Below the pieces are notes generated by a model. It saw nothing but the letters and a program-made list of their open reading frames with translations. It had not been told where the DNA came from and searched no databases. The translations under genes and the position numbers were made by a program. Below are positions 169 through 9,094 of a stretch of DNA of 57,769 bases, piece by piece. Where the stretch lies: contig NZ_ASSJ01000021.1 in NCBI RefSeq assembly GCF_000473895.1, positions 1 through 57,769 on the forward strand, read 5' to 3'. This DNA comes from Rubidibacter lacunae KORDI 51-2. GTDB taxonomy: Bacteria > Cyanobacteriota > Cyanobacteriia > Cyanobacteriales > Rubidibacteraceae. How positions within the stretch are numbered: position 1 is the stretch's first letter; each line of letters starts with the position of its first letter.

Positions 169-1200
169 ATGAAAGCACGTAGCGGACAAGACTTCTGGGT
201 ATGGCATCTCTGGCTGTTTGCCAGCGCGCTGATCTTGGTATTCTTCGTGCGCTACTTGTTCTGGGCGCCCGAAGGCGGCTTTAGCGCTCGCGCCGACGCC
301 ACTGGCGTTGCCCGCGCGATTGTGGTGCTGTTCGTCGTTGCCGTCATCGTCAATGCGATCAATACCTACTCGGTCTTCTTTGAGTTCGATGCCATCAAAC
401 AATCGCGCGGCATCTTTGGCAAACACGTCGCAACTCTGCGCGAAATCTCCGCTAACAAGATCGCAATCGACCAACAGTTCTCGTTAGAGATCGTTGAGAA
501 TAAACTGCTCCGGCGCGAAGGTTGGGTCCAGCTTTCCTCAAACCTGCTGATCACGCTCGGGATGATTGGAACGGTTCTGGGATTGACAATCGCAATGGGT
601 CAGCTATCCGGCACCATTGCTGCCATCCGCGATAACATCGCTGCGAGCGCGGACGGCTCCCTTCCCGACCTCGACGCCCCAATCGCGGGCCTCAGCGGCG
701 CGCTTGCCGGGATGTCAACGGCATTTTTGACAACCTTACTGGGAGCCGTGCTCGGGGGCCTGACCTTAAAACTGCTCAGCCATTCGACGGTCAACTTGAT
801 CGAAGACCTGGTCGATAACATCCGCCATAAAACCGAAGCAGAAGTGATTCCCGCCTTGCAACGCGAAGTCTGGGAAAGGGAAATGCTCGAGCTGGCCCGC
901 GCCCATGAAAGCGTCAAGACCTTCGTCGATGGTGCGAGCGACGTGGAGCAATCGTTGAGAAACTATACCCAGAGTATGGCAACGGCATCCTCGCAAATGA
1001 GCGCGATCGCCGACGACATCACGACCAAACTCAACGATTACGCCGAAGAGTCTCGCCAGGGTTATCTCCAGTCAAAAGCAGATGCGCTTTTAAATCGGTT
1101 CCGACAGCTTACCAATGCCTGGTTCGGCATTGCCGTTTTCCTCGGCGTCGTTCTGCTCCTACAAACCGGCGCGATTGTTGTCTTCTTTGCCAGTCGCTAG
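169..1200 (+). CDS. MotA/TolQ/ExbB-like proton-channel membrane protein
   Basis: The product (343 aa) has two N-terminal membrane segments (about residues 10-33 and 50-75). A conserved MotA/ExbB-type helix pair follows: GMIGTVLGLTIAM near residue 140 and GMSTAFLTTLLGAVLG near residue 190. In the known family these two helices line the ion channel that drives a 5:2 rotary complex. After them comes an acidic helical region of about 100 residues and then, unusually, a fifth hydrophobic segment at the extreme C-terminus (GIAVFLGVVLLLQTG). MotA, TolQ and ExbB end in the cytoplasm. The frame is open from an ATG at 19, but residues encoded by 19-168 look non-coding and span a HIP1-like site, so I chose the ATG at 169. 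No good ribosome site supports either start. The next gene encodes the likely MotB-type partner 73 bp downstream. Family membership is fairly secure; the energised process is unknown. Confidence 0.7.
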   Translation: MKARSGQDFWVWHLWLFASALILVFFVRYLFWAPEGGFSARADATGVARAIVVLFVVAVIVNAINTYSVFFEFDAIKQSRGIFGKHVATLREISANKIAIDQQFSLEIVENKLLRREGWVQLSSNLLITLGMIGTVLGLTIAMGQLSGTIAAIRDNIAASADGSLPDLDAPIAGLSGALAGMSTAFLTTLLGAVLGGLTLKLLSHSTVNLIEDLVDNIRHKTEAEVIPALQREVWEREMLELARAHESVKTFVDGASDVEQSLRNYTQSMATASSQMSAIADDITTKLNDYAEESRQGYLQSKADALLNRFRQLTNAWFGIAVFLGVVLLLQTGAIVVFFASR

Positions 1201-1273
1201 CCGGATCGAGTGCGGGCTGGCTAACAACTGAAACGACCGGCATTCAACCTACTCGAAACGCAAGGACCTTGAC

Positions 1274-1939
1274 ATGAGACGCCGACGCCGAGCTCCCCGT
1301 GGAGAATCGATCTTCGAATTGCTCTCCGACATTAGCTTGTCGGCGCTGGGGCTGTTTCTGATCGTCTTTGTGATCTATGCGGTGTTGTTCGATTCGTCCG
1401 GCGCGTCCCCACAGGAAAACGAACGACTCAGGTCGAGGAACGAAGAACTCGATCGCGAAAACGAACGCCTTGCCGACGAGAATACCAGCCTCGAGGAACA
1501 GCTGGCCGATGCGGGCGATCGCGCGGAGGCAGCTGAACAAGAACTCCTCCAAATCGAGGAGCGCACGGAACTCACTGGCTACTATTCGGGTGACATCGAA
1601 AGCAAACTATATGCGCGAGCGAACGGTTGTACCGGAGCCTTCACAACCGTTTACGGCGAGCAGAACTTACTTTACATCGGCACGACCAATACGATTGTTT
1701 ACTCGACGGTCTATCCGGGGCACGGCGAGCTAACCTACCGCTTTCAAGGCGAGTTAACTGGCAACGTGTTTGAGAGCGACGACACGCAATACTCGCGCAC
1801 GCAGGCACTCGAAGCATGTGGCAATCCCACGCAAAATCGCATTCGCGTGGAGTTCTACGACGACAACGCTAAGGTCTATTTCCTAGACGGCACGATTGAG
1901 TCGGAGTCCAAACCCGAAATCCTCCGCCGCGTGACCTAG
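1274..1939 (+). CDS. MotB/ExbD-like single-TM protein with coiled coil, no OmpA domain
   Basis: This 221-aa protein starts with an arginine-rich cytoplasmic tail. One membrane segment follows (about residues 16-40, SDISLSALGLFLIVFVIYAV) with an aspartate, Asp19, at its cytoplasmic side. That is the arrangement around the proton-carrying Asp in MotB, ZorB and ExbD. Next is a charged heptad region (residues about 50-100, rich in Glu, Arg, Asn, Leu) that should form a coiled coil. The last 120 residues look like a beta-rich domain with two cysteines and match nothing I recognise. The peptidoglycan-binding OmpA domain of MotB and ZorB is absent. The ATG follows a weak AAGGA about 8 bases upstream. 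The gene is probably co-transcribed with the MotA-like gene. The role as stator partner is inferred from the pairing and the Asp position. Confidence 0.6.
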   Translation: MRRRRRAPRGESIFELLSDISLSALGLFLIVFVIYAVLFDSSGASPQENERLRSRNEELDRENERLADENTSLEEQLADAGDRAEAAEQELLQIEERTELTGYYSGDIESKLYARANGCTGAFTTVYGEQNLLYIGTTNTIVYSTVYPGHGELTYRFQGELTGNVFESDDTQYSRTQALEACGNPTQNRIRVEFYDDNAKVYFLDGTIESESKPEILRRVT

Positions 1940-2116: not shown

Positions 2117-2920
2117 GTGGACCGTGCATCGATTGGGGGAACGCTTGTCGCCGTTCTAGAAGATTTAACCTACATGCGCCGTCAGCTGCGTTCTGCTCAG
2201 CCCGCCCTGCGCGCGGCACTCGGTAAATTCGGACGTTCGCTGTCAATGTGGTTGGCCTGTGGGGCCGGCACGATCGCGTTGCTGCTCTGGAACTGGCAGC
2301 TCGTGTGCGCGACGGCCGCAGGCATTGCCACACTGGTGCTGGCTTACCTGATACCGACTCGCTACTGGCAACAGGTGCAAACGCGGGTGCTTCAGGTGTG
2401 GCAGGGTATTCCCCGGCACATGACACTGGCAGTGGTGAGTAGCGGCATCGTTGCCACGTTCGTCTACGCCGCACTTGCTATTTGGACGGCGGCGACCGAT
2501 CGCTGGTTGGCTGCTGGCGCGATCGCCCAGAGTGTGGCAACGTTTCTGACGCTCGGGTTGTTAGGCTGGCATGTCTTCGAGCGCCAACCGCAACGGTCTT
2601 TTGCTCGCGATCGCTACCTGCGCGAGCTAACCCACGCCGACGCGCTCAAGCGGCTGATTGCCGTCCGCTTATTGAGCGAGCGGGCACTAACCGGCGCGCA
2701 AGCCGAGCGCAAACATCTGGGCGAATATTTCTGCCTGTTGCACTCGCGCGAGTCCGAACCGTTAGTCCGTGCGGCAATTCTCGACAGTTTGCACCGGCTC
2801 GAACTAGCTCCCCCGCCACCGCGCCCCCAACCGCTGCTTGCCCTAGAGAAACGCGAACAACCCGTTGCGATCGCGGTTCCCAAACAGCTCGTCGTTCCCG
2901 TGGAAGAAACCGCTGGCTAA
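2117..2920 (+). CDS. Membrane protein with HEAT-like C-terminal helices, unknown function
   Basis: The 267-aa product has two hydrophobic hairpins, about four membrane segments between residues 35 and 160. A cytoplasmic helical part follows (ADALKRLIAVRLLSERA, then EPLVRAAILDSLHRLEL) resembling paired HEAT/armadillo helices. The end is a proline-rich tail. I chose the GTG at 2117. The frame is also open from a TTG at 2084, and neither has a strong ribosome site. It lies 177 bp after the MotB-like gene on the same strand and may share its transcript. I do not recognise a characterised family. A link to the motor-like pair is a guess from position only. Confidence 0.5.
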   Translation: MDRASIGGTLVAVLEDLTYMRRQLRSAQPALRAALGKFGRSLSMWLACGAGTIALLLWNWQLVCATAAGIATLVLAYLIPTRYWQQVQTRVLQVWQGIPRHMTLAVVSSGIVATFVYAALAIWTAATDRWLAAGAIAQSVATFLTLGLLGWHVFERQPQRSFARDRYLRELTHADALKRLIAVRLLSERALTGAQAERKHLGEYFCLLHSRESEPLVRAAILDSLHRLELAPPPPRPQPLLALEKREQPVAIAVPKQLVVPVEETAG

Positions 2921-3081: not shown

Positions 3082-4239
3082 TTGACTTCCGAGCAGCTAG
3101 CGCAGGTCGTTCGCGATCGCCTCGGTCGAGCGGGGGGGTGCCTGACGTTTGCCGAATTTATGGAGTTGGTGCTCTACCATCCCGAATGCGGTTATTACAG
3201 TTCGGGTACGGTTCGCATCGGTGCTGACGGCGATTTCTTTACCTCACCATCTTTGGGTCCGGACTTTGGCGAACTGCTCGCCGTGCAACTTGCCGAACTG
3301 TGGGAGTTTCTCGATCGCCCATCTCCATTTGCACTGGTCGAAATAGGTGCCGGTCAGGGGGTCTTGGCGGGCGATATTCTGTCCTGGCTGAAGGAGTCCC
3401 GCAAAGCTTGTTTTGCCGCGCTCGACTACCGCATCGTCGAATACGCACCGGCATTGATTGCAAGACAGCAACAGGAACTGACCGCATGGGGCGATCGCGT
3501 TCGCTGGCAAGCGTGGGACGAAATTCCAGACGGCTCCTTGATCGGATGTTGCTTCTCGAACGAACTCGTTGATGCGTTACCCGTCCATCGGGTCGCGATC
3601 GCGGATGGGAAAATACAGGAGGTCTACGTCACGCTGGATGCTGGCGATCGCCTGACGGAAAAAGTTGCCGAGCTATCAACCCCGAAGCTAAGGGAGTACT
3701 TCGACGAAGTCGGCATCAACCTCAGCGATCCGGCCTACCCCGACGGCTATCGAACGGAAGTGAATCTGTCAGCGATCGCGTGGCTGGAAACAGTCGCTTG
3801 CAAACTCGATCGCGGGTACGCGATCACGGTGGATTATGGTTATTCCGCGCAGAAACTTTATCGACCGCAGCGCAGCGACGGCACGCTGCAATGCTATTTC
3901 CAGCACCGCCGCCACAGCAATCCCTACGTCAACCTCGGCCGACAAGATATCACCGCACACGTCGACTTCACAGCACTCGATTGCTTCGGGCGATCGTTCG
4001 GACTGATAACAGTTGGCGCTACTCAACAAGGCTTATTTCTGATGGCACTGGGGTTAGGCGATCGGCTGATGGAATTATCGAGTGGGAAATTCGATGTCGC
4101 GCACGTACTGCAACGCCGCGATGCCCTCCACCAACTCATTAACCCGAGCGGACTGGGGGGATTCCAAGTGCTCGTGCAGGGGAAAAAGGTCGATCCCGCG
4201 CGCTCGTTACGCGGACTGACAGTGCCGCCATTAATGTAG
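3082..4239 (+). CDS. SAM-dependent methyltransferase, NDUFAF7/MidA family (COG1565)
   Basis: The protein (385 aa) is full length for the COG1565 family. After the FAEFMELVLYHPECGYYSSG segment comes the DFFTSPSLGPDFGELLA motif, then the SAM-binding strand LVEIGAGQGVLAGDIL (about residues 85-100). A later SNELVDALPVHRV motif is also typical of the family. The mitochondrial homologue NDUFAF7 methylates an arginine of a complex I subunit. The cyanobacterial substrate is not known, though an NDH-1 subunit is an obvious candidate. The start is a TTG at 3082; no better in-frame ATG precedes the conserved N-terminus. It is followed by a convergent kinase gene. Confidence 0.85.
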   Translation: MTSEQLAQVVRDRLGRAGGCLTFAEFMELVLYHPECGYYSSGTVRIGADGDFFTSPSLGPDFGELLAVQLAELWEFLDRPSPFALVEIGAGQGVLAGDILSWLKESRKACFAALDYRIVEYAPALIARQQQELTAWGDRVRWQAWDEIPDGSLIGCCFSNELVDALPVHRVAIADGKIQEVYVTLDAGDRLTEKVAELSTPKLREYFDEVGINLSDPAYPDGYRTEVNLSAIAWLETVACKLDRGYAITVDYGYSAQKLYRPQRSDGTLQCYFQHRRHSNPYVNLGRQDITAHVDFTALDCFGRSFGLITVGATQQGLFLMALGLGDRLMELSSGKFDVAHVLQRRDALHQLINPSGLGGFQVLVQGKKVDPARSLRGLTVPPLM

Positions 4240-4351
4240 GCGAGCGTTGCCGAAATGGCGGGTTCGCAAGGAAGCTCAGGGCTAGCCAGCTATCAATTCA
4301 GCTTGAAGCCGACGAACTCGCGTTCGGTCGGGCAAAGGTTGCGGGCAGTCT

Positions 4352-6085
4352 TTACCACGCGTTCAGTTTTTCCTGTCGCTCGTAGAGGGGAGCGAGCGAC
4401 TGCACGATCGCTGTTGCCGCTTGGGAGCCCTCGCAACGCTCGCCGATGCTCTGTGCTGCTTCGTGCAGGCGCATTCTCAACGCGTCCAGCGACGCAAAAC
4501 TCCGAAATAGCTGGCAGAGCAAGCTGTCGAGTTCATAGGTTTTAATCGTCGACCAATCCTGACCGCTGAGGCCTAACTGGTAGTGCAACACCGAGAAAAT
4601 AAGAATCTTCGCGCGTAGCGGAGTTGTGTACTTCATGACGTCGAAGCGCAGATCGAACGGATCGTACCCGAGTGCCTGGACCGTCGACCGGTCGGTCTTG
4701 AGCTCCAATGGGTTTGAAGGCTCTGACGTTTCGGCCGTGCCGCCGGTTGTTGAAGACGTATCTGAGGAGTTGTCGCCCGAGTGAGTCGCTTCGCTCCCTG
4801 CCGGGGGCGCGGAATCCGCCGTTGCATCCCGATCGGCGGCATCGCTTAGGGCGTCAGGATTGAAGGGGTTTTCGCCGCCAGTATCTTTATCGCCCTTGAT
4901 GGCGGTGTCGGGATCCCCCTCCTCTGAGGCTGGATCGGCATAGAGCTGCCCAAACTGGGAGGCGATCGCTTCGCCTACACGCGCGTACTTTTCGGGCTTG
5001 TTAAGCGTTTGTACGATTCCATTCAACAAACTGCTGAAGCGCTGTAGCGTTGGATGCAGCTGATAGAGTTCGCGCACCAAATCACGAGTGCGATAGGCAA
5101 GCAGGCGATTTTGGTCGTTTTCCCATTCGTTGTGGCGGGCGTAATAAAGCAGCTTTTTGACGCGAGAGAAGTCCGAATATTGCTTGAGTTCGTTAACAAC
5201 AGTATCGAGTAACTCTTCTTCCGCAGCCGTCAGCTCGGGCTGCTCGATCTCGATTTGCAACAAATGCTGGCACGCCTGCAAGGCTTCAATTGTGTCGGCA
5301 ACTGAGTCGAAGCGCTTGCGATAGTCCCAAGCCACCATGCGATCGAGAATATCTGCGAGCCGAGCATCCGCATGCGGAGCCCGCTCTCGCCAAACCTTAT
5401 TCCCTTCGGAGTCTTCCAGCAGGCGCTTGGGTGAGACGCCGGTCAGTGCTTGAATGGCAATTCGACCGACGGCAAAGATGTCGCTACTAAAACGCGGCTT
5501 GCCGTTTTGTTGCTCGGCTGGCATATACGACGGCGTCCCCACAGCCACAGTCAACAGCGTCGGTTCGCCCCCTTCATACTTCACTGCTGTGACACGCTTG
5601 ACCGACCCGAAGTCGATTAGTACCAAACGCCCGTCAGCCGTGCGACGGATTAAGTTGGCTGGCTTGATATCTCGATGGATAACGCTGTTCTCGTGGACGA
5701 AATAAAGCAGTCCGAGCACGTCATTCAGGAACAATAACACCTGTGCGTTTGTCCAGCGTCGCCTTTTCTTAAGCTCCGAGCTCAGCGACGTTCCATCGAT
5801 AAATTCTTGAACCAAGAAAAACTTCTCGTTTTCTTCAAAATGAGCCTTGAGTTCGGGAATCTGGTCGTGTACGCCTACTTGCGACAGCACTTCGGCTTCT
5901 TCCTGAAACAGGCGTCGCGCGGTCTTCAGCACCCACTCCTTGCTAAACTGCGGCTTGAGCTGCTTGACAACGCACGGCGGGGCACCCGGAAAATCCAGAT
6001 CCCGTGCTAAAAACGTATCGCTGAAGCCGCCGCTACCAAGCTGCTCGACAATTTCGTAGCGCCCTCTCAAGGTCGTTCCCAGCAT
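4352..6085 (-). CDS. Serine/threonine protein kinase with long C-terminal extension
   Basis: Residues about 10-275 form a Hanks-type kinase domain. It has the glycine loop LGSGGFSDTFLARD, the VVKQLK lysine, the catalytic loop HRDIKPANLI, DFGSVKRV in place of the usual DFG-led activation segment, and GTPSYMPAEQ. This subtype, with DFGSVK, is common in cyanobacterial kinases. The rest (577 aa in total) has helical stretches around residues 290-380, a low-complexity acidic Ser/Thr/Gly linker around residues 400-470, and a final helical block of unknown type. No membrane segment or repeat sensor domain is visible, so it is probably soluble. I chose the ATG at 6085 because it directly precedes the conserved LRGRYEI entry to the kinase fold. 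The frame extends to a TTG at 6133. Confidence 0.85.
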   Translation of the reverse strand: MLGTTLRGRYEIVEQLGSGGFSDTFLARDLDFPGAPPCVVKQLKPQFSKEWVLKTARRLFQEEAEVLSQVGVHDQIPELKAHFEENEKFFLVQEFIDGTSLSSELKKRRRWTNAQVLLFLNDVLGLLYFVHENSVIHRDIKPANLIRRTADGRLVLIDFGSVKRVTAVKYEGGEPTLLTVAVGTPSYMPAEQQNGKPRFSSDIFAVGRIAIQALTGVSPKRLLEDSEGNKVWRERAPHADARLADILDRMVAWDYRKRFDSVADTIEALQACQHLLQIEIEQPELTAAEEELLDTVVNELKQYSDFSRVKKLLYYARHNEWENDQNRLLAYRTRDLVRELYQLHPTLQRFSSLLNGIVQTLNKPEKYARVGEAIASQFGQLYADPASEEGDPDTAIKGDKDTGGENPFNPDALSDAADRDATADSAPPAGSEATHSGDNSSDTSSTTGGTAETSEPSNPLELKTDRSTVQALGYDPFDLRFDVMKYTTPLRAKILIFSVLHYQLGLSGQDWSTIKTYELDSLLCQLFRSFASLDALRMRLHEAAQSIGERCEGSQAATAIVQSLAPLYERQEKLNAW

Positions 6086-6133
6086 CTGTATCGGTTTGCG
6101 TTCGGCAAATTCAGTGGAAGAACTTTTTACCAA

Positions 6134-6753: not shown

Positions 6754-7671
6754 ATGCCGTACACGTATCTGCCCGTTGCCTTCTTTCAAAATCGCTTTAT
6801 CCCCTTTACCGACGCCAAGATCTCGATTGCCACGCACGCATTGCACTATGGAACGGCAGCCTTCGGCGGTTTGCGCGGCATCATCGATCCTCAAAATTCG
6901 CAGCAGGTGCTACTATTTCGCCTCGACCGACATGCCGCACGCCTGTCGCAAAGCGCTCGTTTTTTGCACTATGACCTGCCAGCTGAAAAGATTCAGGCAT
7001 CGATCGTCGAGTTCGTCCGCCATAACCGACCGACAAAATCTTTCTACATTCGCCCATTGGTCTACACCTCCGACTTGGGCATTGCACCACGCCTGCATGA
7101 GGTCGAGAAAGATTGTTTGATTTATGGAATCGAACTGGGCGACTATTTACCGGCTGATGGGGTTCGCTGCCGAATCAGTTCTTGGTGCCGCCAAGAGGAT
7201 CGCAGCCTGCCTCTGCGCGGCAAGATCAGTGGCGCGTACATTACCTCATCTCTTGCCAAAACCGAAGCGGTAGCATCGGGTTTCGATGAGGCGATCTTGT
7301 TAACCGCACAGGGCAAGGTGAGCGAAGCCACGGGCATGAACATCTTTATCGTGCGGAACGGGCAGCTAATCGCCCCCGATGTCTGTCAAGACGTACTTGA
7401 AGGGATTACTCGCGATAGCGTTCTGACGATCGCTCGCGACTTGGGCATCCCCGTTGCCGAGCGTCCGGTGGATAAGTCCGAACTGTATGCAGCAGAGGAA
7501 GTTTTCTTAAGCGGCACGGCGGCTAAAATCACACCAGTCAAGCAAATTGAAAGTTACGAACTTCCTAGCGAGCGCCCGATCGCCAATCGCTTGCGGTCGA
7601 TGCTGGCTGCGATCGTTGAGGATCGCGAACCTGCTTACCGAAACTGGGTCGATCGCGTACCGCTGACTTGA
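6754..7671 (+). CDS. ilvE: Branched-chain amino acid aminotransferase (fold-type IV PLP)
   Basis: This 305-aa enzyme interconverts valine, leucine and isoleucine with their 2-oxo acids using glutamate/2-oxoglutarate. The N-terminus has the typical HALHYGTAAFGGLRG motif. The PLP lysine is expected in RGKISGAYITSSLAKTEA (around residue 157). The cofactor-site motifs EATGMNIFIVRNG and ITRDSVLTIA follow, and a FLSGTAAKITPV block lies near the C-terminus. All the main class IV landmarks are present at normal length. The enzyme is cytosolic. It stands alone between unrelated genes. A D-amino acid transaminase is less likely because the GTAAFGGLRG entry is of the BCAT type. Confidence 0.93.
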   Translation: MPYTYLPVAFFQNRFIPFTDAKISIATHALHYGTAAFGGLRGIIDPQNSQQVLLFRLDRHAARLSQSARFLHYDLPAEKIQASIVEFVRHNRPTKSFYIRPLVYTSDLGIAPRLHEVEKDCLIYGIELGDYLPADGVRCRISSWCRQEDRSLPLRGKISGAYITSSLAKTEAVASGFDEAILLTAQGKVSEATGMNIFIVRNGQLIAPDVCQDVLEGITRDSVLTIARDLGIPVAERPVDKSELYAAEEVFLSGTAAKITPVKQIESYELPSERPIANRLRSMLAAIVEDREPAYRNWVDRVPLT

Positions 7672-7925
7672 GGTTCCTCGAGTAATATGGGGTTCGTCTG
7701 AGAAACTACGAGTTGGGCACCTCGAATCATTCGCTCAAGACCGAAGGTCGGCACAGCAGCATGGGCATTTAAGGCGCAAGCATGCCACAATCTAGCAATT
7801 TTTCCAAGGTGCACAATTTTAAGACTAGCCAGCAGTTGATACGCACTTCGATTGTTTTCGACTGATTGGACGCACGTTCCCAGACCCTTTGACTCCAAAC
7901 AATTCTTCAGCTTCGCCGGTTGAGG

Positions 7926-8306
7926 CTAGACTTCATTGGTGTCCGAAACTTGTTCTGGCTCGGCCAGATTGAGGTAACGTTTAACTGTTTGTTGCAGCAT
8001 TTCGCCCACAAGCTGTTCCGAAACCCCATGCTCGGTAGCTAACGCTTCAACAAGGTATCGTGCTTGATAGTTTCTTGCCGAGGTTGGAGACTTTGGCTCC
8101 ACACTCGTGCGTTCTTCGATGTTGAGTGCATGCTCCTGCCAGTTGTAGTCTTCGTCGGGGTAGTCGTGCACCACTTCCACCACAAAAGTTAGCAAAATCC
8201 CCTCTAATCGAGAGAACCGCAAGGTCATTTCAGGATATGCAGGGTCTCCTAGATATGGATTCTCTATGACGGAGACAAGTTTTTTGTAGTTGAATTCCTC
8301 AGACAT
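7926..8306 (-). CDS. Hypothetical acidic protein (126 aa)
   Basis: I do not recognise this protein. It is acidic and soluble, with no signal peptide or membrane segment. The N-terminal half looks like alternating strands (SRLEGILLTFVVEVVHDYP), and the second half is probably helical (EQLVGEMLQQTVKRYLNL). Codon use fits its neighbours, and the ATG start has a purine-rich stretch just upstream. It lies 151 bp downstream of the interrupted small gene at 8458-8733 on the same strand, and the two may once have been one transcript. It is probably a real gene of unknown function. Confidence 0.55.
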   Translation of the reverse strand: MSEEFNYKKLVSVIENPYLGDPAYPEMTLRFSRLEGILLTFVVEVVHDYPDEDYNWQEHALNIEERTSVEPKSPTSARNYQARYLVEALATEHGVSEQLVGEMLQQTVKRYLNLAEPEQVSDTNEV

Positions 8307-8457
8307 GTTGATTTTCCCGTTGGTAGGGGTGTGGAAGTTTGTTCGTTGAAGTTAAATACTGTACCCGAGAAACGAAGGCTTACAAAAAGCCCCCTCCGAG
8401 CACTCGAGGGACAGCGTATAGAAGCTCCAAGCAGCACGTGAGAACCATCGATAGGTC

Positions 8458-8733
8458 TTAGAACTTGACCCCGCGATAGGCATGGCGACCGGCAGCATGA
8501 GGCACGACAGCCGCTAGATCGACATACTTGGCTTCAGCCCTCCGATATTTGCCAACTCCGACTGCTCGGACGACCTTGAAGTTGAGAGCCGGCTTAGTGT
8601 ATTGTTGTCCGCGATCTTTAACGATCTTCGTTTCAAACGAGGCAGATAGGAGGCGCGTTTCTTCAAGGCAAAGCCCCTACTCCCGTCCCCTCAGAGGAAC
8701 CATGGAGATGAACGACTTATTTTCTGTAGCCAT
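8458..8733 (-). pseudogene. Small basic protein gene interrupted by an in-frame amber codon
   Basis: Read from the ATG at 8733, this 92-codon frame is open except for one TAG at 8677-8679 (minus strand). It begins MATENKSFISMVPLRGRE. After the TAG it continues with a convincing basic sequence (ALNFKVVRAVGVGKYRRAEA, then a C-terminal AYRGVKF) to a TAA. The continuity of the frame on both sides of the stop suggests one small gene broken by a point mutation, a sequencing error, or recoding. The family is not recognised. The gene at 7926-8306 follows on the same strand. Confidence 0.4.
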
Positions 8734-9094
8734 TGTTACCGTTTGTGCGAGCCCTGTCAACCGAGTCAGTGGAAGTCCCATTTCATGAAGGGGTTCCTTG
8801 AAGAATGGTTATGAGAGGGGACTTCATGTCGGGGGAGTTGCCGGTGTTTGGCCAGCTTTTTAGGGGTGAATTCGCAAGCTGACGCGCTAAAGGGTAAACG
8901 TGCGGTATGCTGCACCCACCCCTGACTTCTTCAAGGTTGTTTGCGATCGCAGTATCGCAATAAGTAGCTCTGTCCGAAGCTCGTGCGCGATCGCACTCGT
9001 TGCCAAAGTGATACAACCCTAACGTGCACCTAACGCGGCACCTGCTATGATATGGAACTGCTGTAGGTAAGTACAAATCACTAGCTAACGCCCG
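8734..9094. other. Intergenic region, no gene recognised
   Basis: About 360 bases lie between the divergent small genes. They contain HIP1 sites near 8943 and 8990 and a TATGAT near 9046 that could be a -10 element for the downstream gene. No matching -35 is clear. Nothing else is recognised. Confidence 0.4.

Follow-up and report, generated by a model that had tools for sequence, protein, structure and literature searches.

A divergent MotA/TolQ/ExbB-type gene pair of Rubidibacter lacunae with a fifth transmembrane helix and a predicted barrel on its partner

Two adjacent genes of the cyanobacterium Rubidibacter lacunae KORDI 51-2 encode a distant MotA/TolQ/ExbB-type channel subunit with an additional, fifth transmembrane (TM) helix (gene A) and a MotB/ExbD-like partner with an invariant aspartate and no detectable OmpA domain (gene B). 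Together, A and B probably constitute a non-flagellar ion motor of the MotA/TolQ/ExbB kind, likely of 5:2 stoichiometry, which would transmit force through a predicted barrel of B to a target in the cell envelope. The motor core belongs to a known type, and what is new is the output end.

Layout, distribution and neighbourhood of the gene pair

The window, i.e. the whole stretch of 57,769 nucleotides that was analysed, represents bases 1-57769 of contig 21 of a 4.15 Mb genome assembled in 99 contigs, and the contig starts 168 bases upstream of gene A, whose upstream side is readable only that far. Gene A (169-1200, + strand; 343 aa from the ATG at 169) and gene B (1274-1939, + strand; 221 aa) are both open across these coordinates and are separated by 73 bases. 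The two genes adjoin in all six cyanobacterial loci, and in four of these they overlap or lie at most five bases apart, which suggests that they form one operon, although this is less clear in the window itself owing to the 73-base gap. Since the third-position GC content of A and B (0.68 and 0.67, respectively) resembles that of three neighbours (0.63-0.67), nothing marks the pair as foreign.

A scan with the single sequence of A, covering 84,980 species at one genome per species, identified no relative among 34 pattern matches, while a scan whose query alignment also contained cyanobacterial ZorA-like proteins recovered the closer relatives of A at 80 loci, of which 64 were examined (L093-L156) and 16 were left out (L157-L172). 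Filtering retained 53 of the 64; the eleven dropped loci were three in which no frame matched (L096, L103 and L142), six of cyanobacterial origin (L136, L141, L147, L150, L151 and L153) and two (L098 and L109) encoding proteobacterial A-type proteins with three helices by hydropathy, the last from about residue 195, and no C-terminal helix either. The nearest relatives of A are found in Oscillatoria sp. PCC 10802 and an Okeania MAG (43% identity), and further relatives occur in many Gamma- and Zetaproteobacteria (24-45% identity over stretches of varying length).

The A/B pair is rare and scattered. Using a profile of three B proteins, full-length B was detected in six of the 388 genomes of the order Cyanobacteriales (those of the window, of what appear to be the same Oscillatoria and Okeania, and of L188, L189 and L190), and in 4 of the 61 genomes of the family that holds four of these six; partial matches, chiefly to the TM helix and coil, were left uncounted (10 of 16 matching genomes in the order and 5 of 9 in the family). 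A single-sequence search of 386 cyanobacterial genomes with B matched the window alone, a plasmid search gave no matches, and no relative was present among 81 pattern matches in viral contigs. The two-gene layout, the fifth helix of A and the C-terminal domain of B recur in five other cyanobacteria, and the arrangement first noticed in the window is therefore more than chance. The pair does not always appear intact, since at L190 the A gene (7621-8838) is split into two open pieces, while at L188 the B gene (3675-4340) carries an internal TAA stop, through either decay or assembly error. In a phylogenetic tree five cyanobacterial A proteins formed one group (95/99), which joined a ZorA-like group (96/97) with a long-branch warning on the join.

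To survey the neighbourhood, frames of at least 80 aa from the first 16 kb of the window and from the five other loci were compared all-versus-all, and only A, B, one kinase and one 82-aa frame (common to L190 and L094, E 4.5e-8) were common to more than one genome. The Ser/Thr kinase genes of the window (4352-6133) and L189 (13513-15261) are alike at E 4e-64 and lie approximately 2.4 and 3.9 kb from the respective pairs, on different sides; WD40 repeats are present in the L189 kinase only, and the same threshold revealed no such kinase at the remaining four loci. This proximity in two of six loci was treated as coincidence and, as no other neighbour is shared, no gene points to a target. The third gene of the window (2117-2920), which the initial annotation had tentatively assigned to the system, was rejected as a motor component: its homologues (28-42% identity) are common, being present in 46 of 60 relatives as against 6 of 388 genomes for B, and none was found in the stretches examined around the other five A/B pairs. 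This gene, which matches no Pfam family at E up to 1, encodes a conserved cyanobacterial protein with hydrophobic segments.

The channel subunit and its fifth helix

Five helices were identified in A by Kyte-Doolittle hydropathy, at residues 9-27, 46-64, 126-144, 185-203 and 321-339, all encoded on the + strand. TM1 and TM2 (193-360) constitute an N-terminal hairpin which, by hydropathy and alignment A5, aligns with that of the proteobacterial relatives. TM3 (544-600) and TM4 (721-777) are the channel helices, with invariant residues G131, I133, G134, T135, G138 and T140 in the former and A185, F186, T188 and T189 in the latter, and the motifs GMIGTVLGL and GMSTAFLTT are positioned in and before these two helices. 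Alignment A5 contains 27 invariant columns, nine of which are located within TM3 and nine within TM4, while among the A-type proteins the GT motif of TM3 is present in 50 of 53 and the AFxTTL motif of TM4 in all 53. The Pfam model MotA_ExbB (PF01618) scored A alone at 18.5 bits, below its cut-off of 22.9; A together with neighbouring pieces of its frame, as encountered in the genome search, scored 25.7 bits, and both the orthologue L093 (31.5 bits) and the proteobacterial relative L095 (33.8 bits) exceeded the cut-off.

An AlphaFold2 model of A (mean pLDDT 81.6, 16 sequences) comprises predicted helices at residues 4-31, 47-77, 81-96, 102-162 and 169-342. When this model was compared to the PDB using Foldseek, rows 1-17 belonged to ExbB/ExbD or TolQ/R/A structures, the best at E 0.008, and ExbB, TolQ, ZorAB or MotAB/PomAB entries accounted for 46 of the 50 matches listed, every E value being above 0.001. 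VIA-align ranked TolQ highest (Z 12.3 over 184 residues), with ZorA at about 10 and MotA at 9.1; the highest Z is below the caution line of approximately 13 that the tool sets for helical models, and unrelated helical chains reached 9.9-11.5 in the same list, so that the assignment of the core rests on sequence and fold together. In profile comparisons with hhalign, made only against alignments built in the present analysis, A matched the cyanobacterial ZorA-like proteins (probability 98, E 1.5e-13, 196 columns) and the ExbB proteins of its own genome at a probability of only 60%. A sequence search of solved structures with A returned MotA at E 0.02, amid coiled-coil matches (best 60 of 72). 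A is thus a distant MotA/TolQ/ExbB-type subunit in which a core of four helices is joined by a fifth TM helix at the C-terminus, and the stator-like character that had been assigned to the pair at the outset is borne out by this core homology, the channel motifs and the aspartate-bearing helix of B.

TM5 (residues 321-339; 1129-1185, + strand), to which the initial annotation had drawn attention, is confined to the cyanobacterial clade. A C-terminal hydrophobic segment is present in six of six cyanobacterial A proteins, with a best 19-residue hydropathy of 2.6-3.6, and in none of 51 proteobacterial ones, in which the maximum is 0.94; the split A of L190 was counted as a C-terminal fragment, and the A of L189 has four helices at the threshold used, under which its TM1 falls. 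Between TM4 and TM5 lies a tail (about residues 204-320; 778-1128, + strand) which is modelled as helical, with low confidence at residues 291-301, and which is presumably cytoplasmic. A tryptophan pattern, usually accompanied by many basic residues, is present in the last 32 residues of 33 of the 51 proteobacterial A proteins, whose tail end may thereby touch the membrane surface. Charges flanking TM5 favour neither side for the C-terminus of A, which would lie outside the cytoplasm, as originally proposed, judging from helix count only.

The aspartate helix, coil and predicted barrel of the partner

B has one TM helix (residues 20-38 by Kyte-Doolittle), preceded by Asp19 (1328-1387, + strand, for the aspartate and helix together, residues 19-38), which is invariant in all six cyanobacterial B proteins, in agreement with the first description of this locus. 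An AlphaFold2 model of B (pLDDT 76.3), built from six sequences of which one is truncated, predicts a TM helix at residues 13-39, a coiled coil at 46-100 (1409-1573, + strand), where coiled-coil-type matches were also obtained, and eight strands at 102-220, with no helix beyond residue 100. The C-terminal domain (101-221; 1574-1936, + strand) is accordingly predicted to be an eight-stranded, calycin-like barrel, with block-mean pLDDT values of 67-92.

No match to OmpA, MotB_plug or ExbD/TolR (PF02472) was detected in B, and none to any Pfam family in its last 110-120 residues or so, in a Pfam search at E up to 1, in which few matches weaker than about 0.1 pass the HMMER filters; the OmpA model itself, run as a control with an E limit of 0.1, picked up seven of seven ZorB-like proteins from cyanobacteria. 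These results uphold the view that a coiled coil and some 120 further residues take the place of an OmpA domain in B. ExbD and TolR are likewise not known to carry an OmpA domain, and the absence of this domain is by itself not unusual. Sequence searches of solved structures with B returned mostly coiled-coil matches (best 60 of 63), with none convincing for the last domain, which was reached weakly by 6snr, at E 0.035, and by a domain of an antibody, at E 0.5. Structural comparison by VIA over residues 96-221 of B gave small barrels, namely erythrocruorin chain N (Z 8.7, the best), nitrophorins (8.1), GID4 (8.1) and designed barrels (8.0-8.1), while the top Foldseek matches were barrels of the TbpB type (E 0.04), and NHBA scored 0.07. 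As the VIA values include many ties and are near the level reached by unrelated folds, 'calycin-like' denotes an arrangement and not ancestry. OmpA and vWA domains are missing from the 50 structural rows listed for B, which is no proof by itself.

Each of the five complete B proteins contains exactly two cysteines, 62-64 residues apart and both within the barrel domain; in the window these are Cys119 (1628-1630, + strand) and Cys182 (1817-1819, + strand). From their conservation a disulfide, and hence an oxidising compartment for the domain, may reasonably be inferred. Profile comparison by hhalign aligned B with the vWA-type partners of the proteobacterial relatives (96%) and with OmpA-type ZorB-like partners (89%), in both cases across the TM helix and coil only.

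Relation to known motors and possible function

The proteobacterial relatives of A are accompanied by a different type of partner. A downstream partner was called for 42 of 51, and each of the 42 bears a D-x-T-G-S-M-type MIDAS-like motif; among the nine without a called partner, eight have such a motif downstream on the same strand, while at the ninth (L114) the contig ends. An aspartate at the start of the helix is present in 41 of the 42 partners, 40 by the 'SD' pattern and one (L106, 'AD') by reading, and the vWA-type partner of L145 (5901-6686), one of the 42, has an alanine in place of the ion-binding aspartate ('FSALSL'). Pfam detected vWA domains weakly in 2 of 11 partners scanned (VWA_CoxE at 8e-4 in one and VWA_4 at 0.09 in L095). 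B is not of this type, as its alignment with the vWA partners ends in the coil. Separately, a bactofilin gene (6867-7322; PF04519, E 5.6e-17) was observed directly after the A/vWA pair of L104.

One report (PMC12204202) describes, in Proteobacteria and Verrucomicrobia, TolQ-like motors with a vWA partner bearing an aspartate transpore helix, and the proteobacterial relatives (L095 and others) fit this type by description only. As in the window, these motors, as portrayed there, combine a MotA/TolQ-like subunit with an Asp-helix partner whose periplasmic domain is of a type other than OmpA or ExbD, and have no separate tolR or exbD gene; the pair of the window differs in its predicted barrel in place of vWA and in the TM5 of A, and a single partner per A was called here whereas the vWA pairs of that account are mostly heterologous (PMC12204202). 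Variation in the N- and C-terminal extensions of non-flagellar A subunits is likewise documented (PMC12505986). By the features tested, the layout of the pair is indeed unlike MotAB, ExbBD, TolQR and Zorya, as had been claimed; the designation 'new class', however, proved too strong, because the core is recognisably MotA/TolQ/ExbB and exceeds the Pfam cut-off, and because motors with a vWA output (PMC12204202) and extended A subunits (PMC12505986) are already described. In the literature searched, with most subscription journals outside its range, no report of the A/B pair or of a barrel-type partner was found.

ExbB and TolQ are three-TM A subunits. MotAB and PomAB share the four-TM core with A, and VIA aligns residues 6-230 of A with MotA (6ysf, Z 9.1), but B matches neither OmpA nor MotB_plug and TM5 is additional. 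The nearest non-orthologous type found in the phylum is that of the ZorA-like pairs at L042-L061, whose core matches that of A at a profile probability of 98 and which differ from the A/B pair in having three TM helices by hydropathy, a long tail without TM5 and an OmpA-type partner (18 of 20). These loci also contain, in 15 of 20 cases each, a Tubulin_2-like gene of approximately 1080 aa and a one-TM gene of approximately 380 aa, in the order 380-aa gene, tubulin-like gene, A and B (e.g. L056, 5113-11896, whose tubulin-like protein matches PF13809 at E 5e-107), an arrangement suggestive of a stator coupled to a tubulin homologue; a search of the genome that holds the window with the tubulin-like protein gave no match at E 0.001. 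On contig 1 of that genome, a MotA/ExbB-family protein of 484 aa and, after it, two proteins of 160 and 256 aa with one TM helix each (L089, 5271-8084) make up a possible three-gene motor with a very long tree branch.

In the reading favoured here, A and B would form an inner-membrane motor, most likely with five A subunits around two of B, in which ions may pass between Asp19 of B and the threonine-bearing TM3 and TM4 of A. Such ion flow would cause the A ring and the B dimer to turn or flex against each other, and the coiled coil of B would carry this motion into the periplasm (or the thylakoid lumen), where the barrel, probably disulfide-bonded, may grip an envelope partner in place of the peptidoglycan binding performed by OmpA; TM5 would bring the cytoplasmic tail of A back to the membrane. 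A cyanobacterium-specific 5:2 motor, in which five additional TM5 helices make up an outer ring tied to the tails and the disulfide-locked, calycin-like barrel on the B dimer is a ligand-operated grip, is a tentative and rather doubtful proposal; the output of such a motor would depend on whether the barrel, in the periplasm or the lumen of the thylakoid, binds its ligand (a lipoprotein, a peptide or a small molecule), and no report of an output domain of this sort was found in the literature searched. That the pair is an ExbBD/TolQR-like energiser of an outer-membrane transport or tethering protein, its barrel binding the partner or its cargo, differs from the motor reading only by naming the target and is unlikely in this specific form: ExbB and TolQ entries top the fold search with A, the partner has no OmpA domain, calycin-type barrel folds often bind ligands or peptides, and the two separate ExbB/ExbD-like pairs of the same genome imply that specialised motors coexist, yet no partner of this sort is conserved beside the pairs, A has five helices, and B is not recognised by the ExbD/TolR model.

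A divergent or decayed Zorya system, in which A and B would act as a ZorAB-like sensor of phage attack with effector genes off the contig, is improbable. The pair shares with ZorAB the stator core, the aspartate helix and a long cytoplasmic tail on A; the PADLOC models for ZorA (best E 6e-5) and ZorB (1e-4) notice A and B, that for ZorB notices the B of L093 (5.8e-6), and NCBIfam ZorA_4 notices A at 1.8e-4, but all scores are far under family level (20.6 bits against an NCBIfam cut-off of 500). The patchy spread, with four carriers among 61 genomes of one family, is defence-like, and the nearest cyanobacterial non-orthologues are ZorA-like and are joined to the A group in the tree, subject to the long-branch warning; nevertheless, the ZorA-like proteins aligned here have no TM5, and B carries no counterpart of the peptidoglycan-binding domain of ZorB, which is needed for Zorya I and II defence (PMC11890865). 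PADLOC was applied to A, B, the third gene and ten proteins of other loci, and among the seven of these that are neighbours, from four other loci, the sole match was that of a gene of L190 (6454-7080) to the PD_DExK model (E 1e-47); this gene lies upstream of the split A, at a distance of about 0.5 kb, and has no counterpart among the frames compared at the other loci. No linked Zorya effector was found among the proteins scanned. Still more remote, and hardly to be expected, is a tether between plasma and thylakoid membranes, in which the tail of A would stay a single extended helix of some 117 residues and about 17 nm, with TM5 in the other membrane. The single helix at 169-342 of the monomer model and the restriction of TM5 to the cyanobacterial clade agree with a tether, while the low confidence and variable length at 291-301 argue against it, a monomer model built on 16 sequences does not suffice to settle how the tail folds, and the Trp-bearing tail ends of 33 of 51 proteobacterial A proteins could rest on the membrane in which A itself sits.

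Ion-driven 5:2 motors supply the energy for motility, nutrient uptake, maintenance of the outer membrane and defence against phages, and the task of such a motor is largely set by the output domain of its B subunit. The occurrence of related A subunits with either a vWA domain or a predicted barrel on B suggests that output modules have been exchanged, and the pair described here provides a two-gene system in which such exchange may be tested. Furthermore, as TM5 is missing from 51 proteobacterial relatives, the role of the A tail becomes directly testable.
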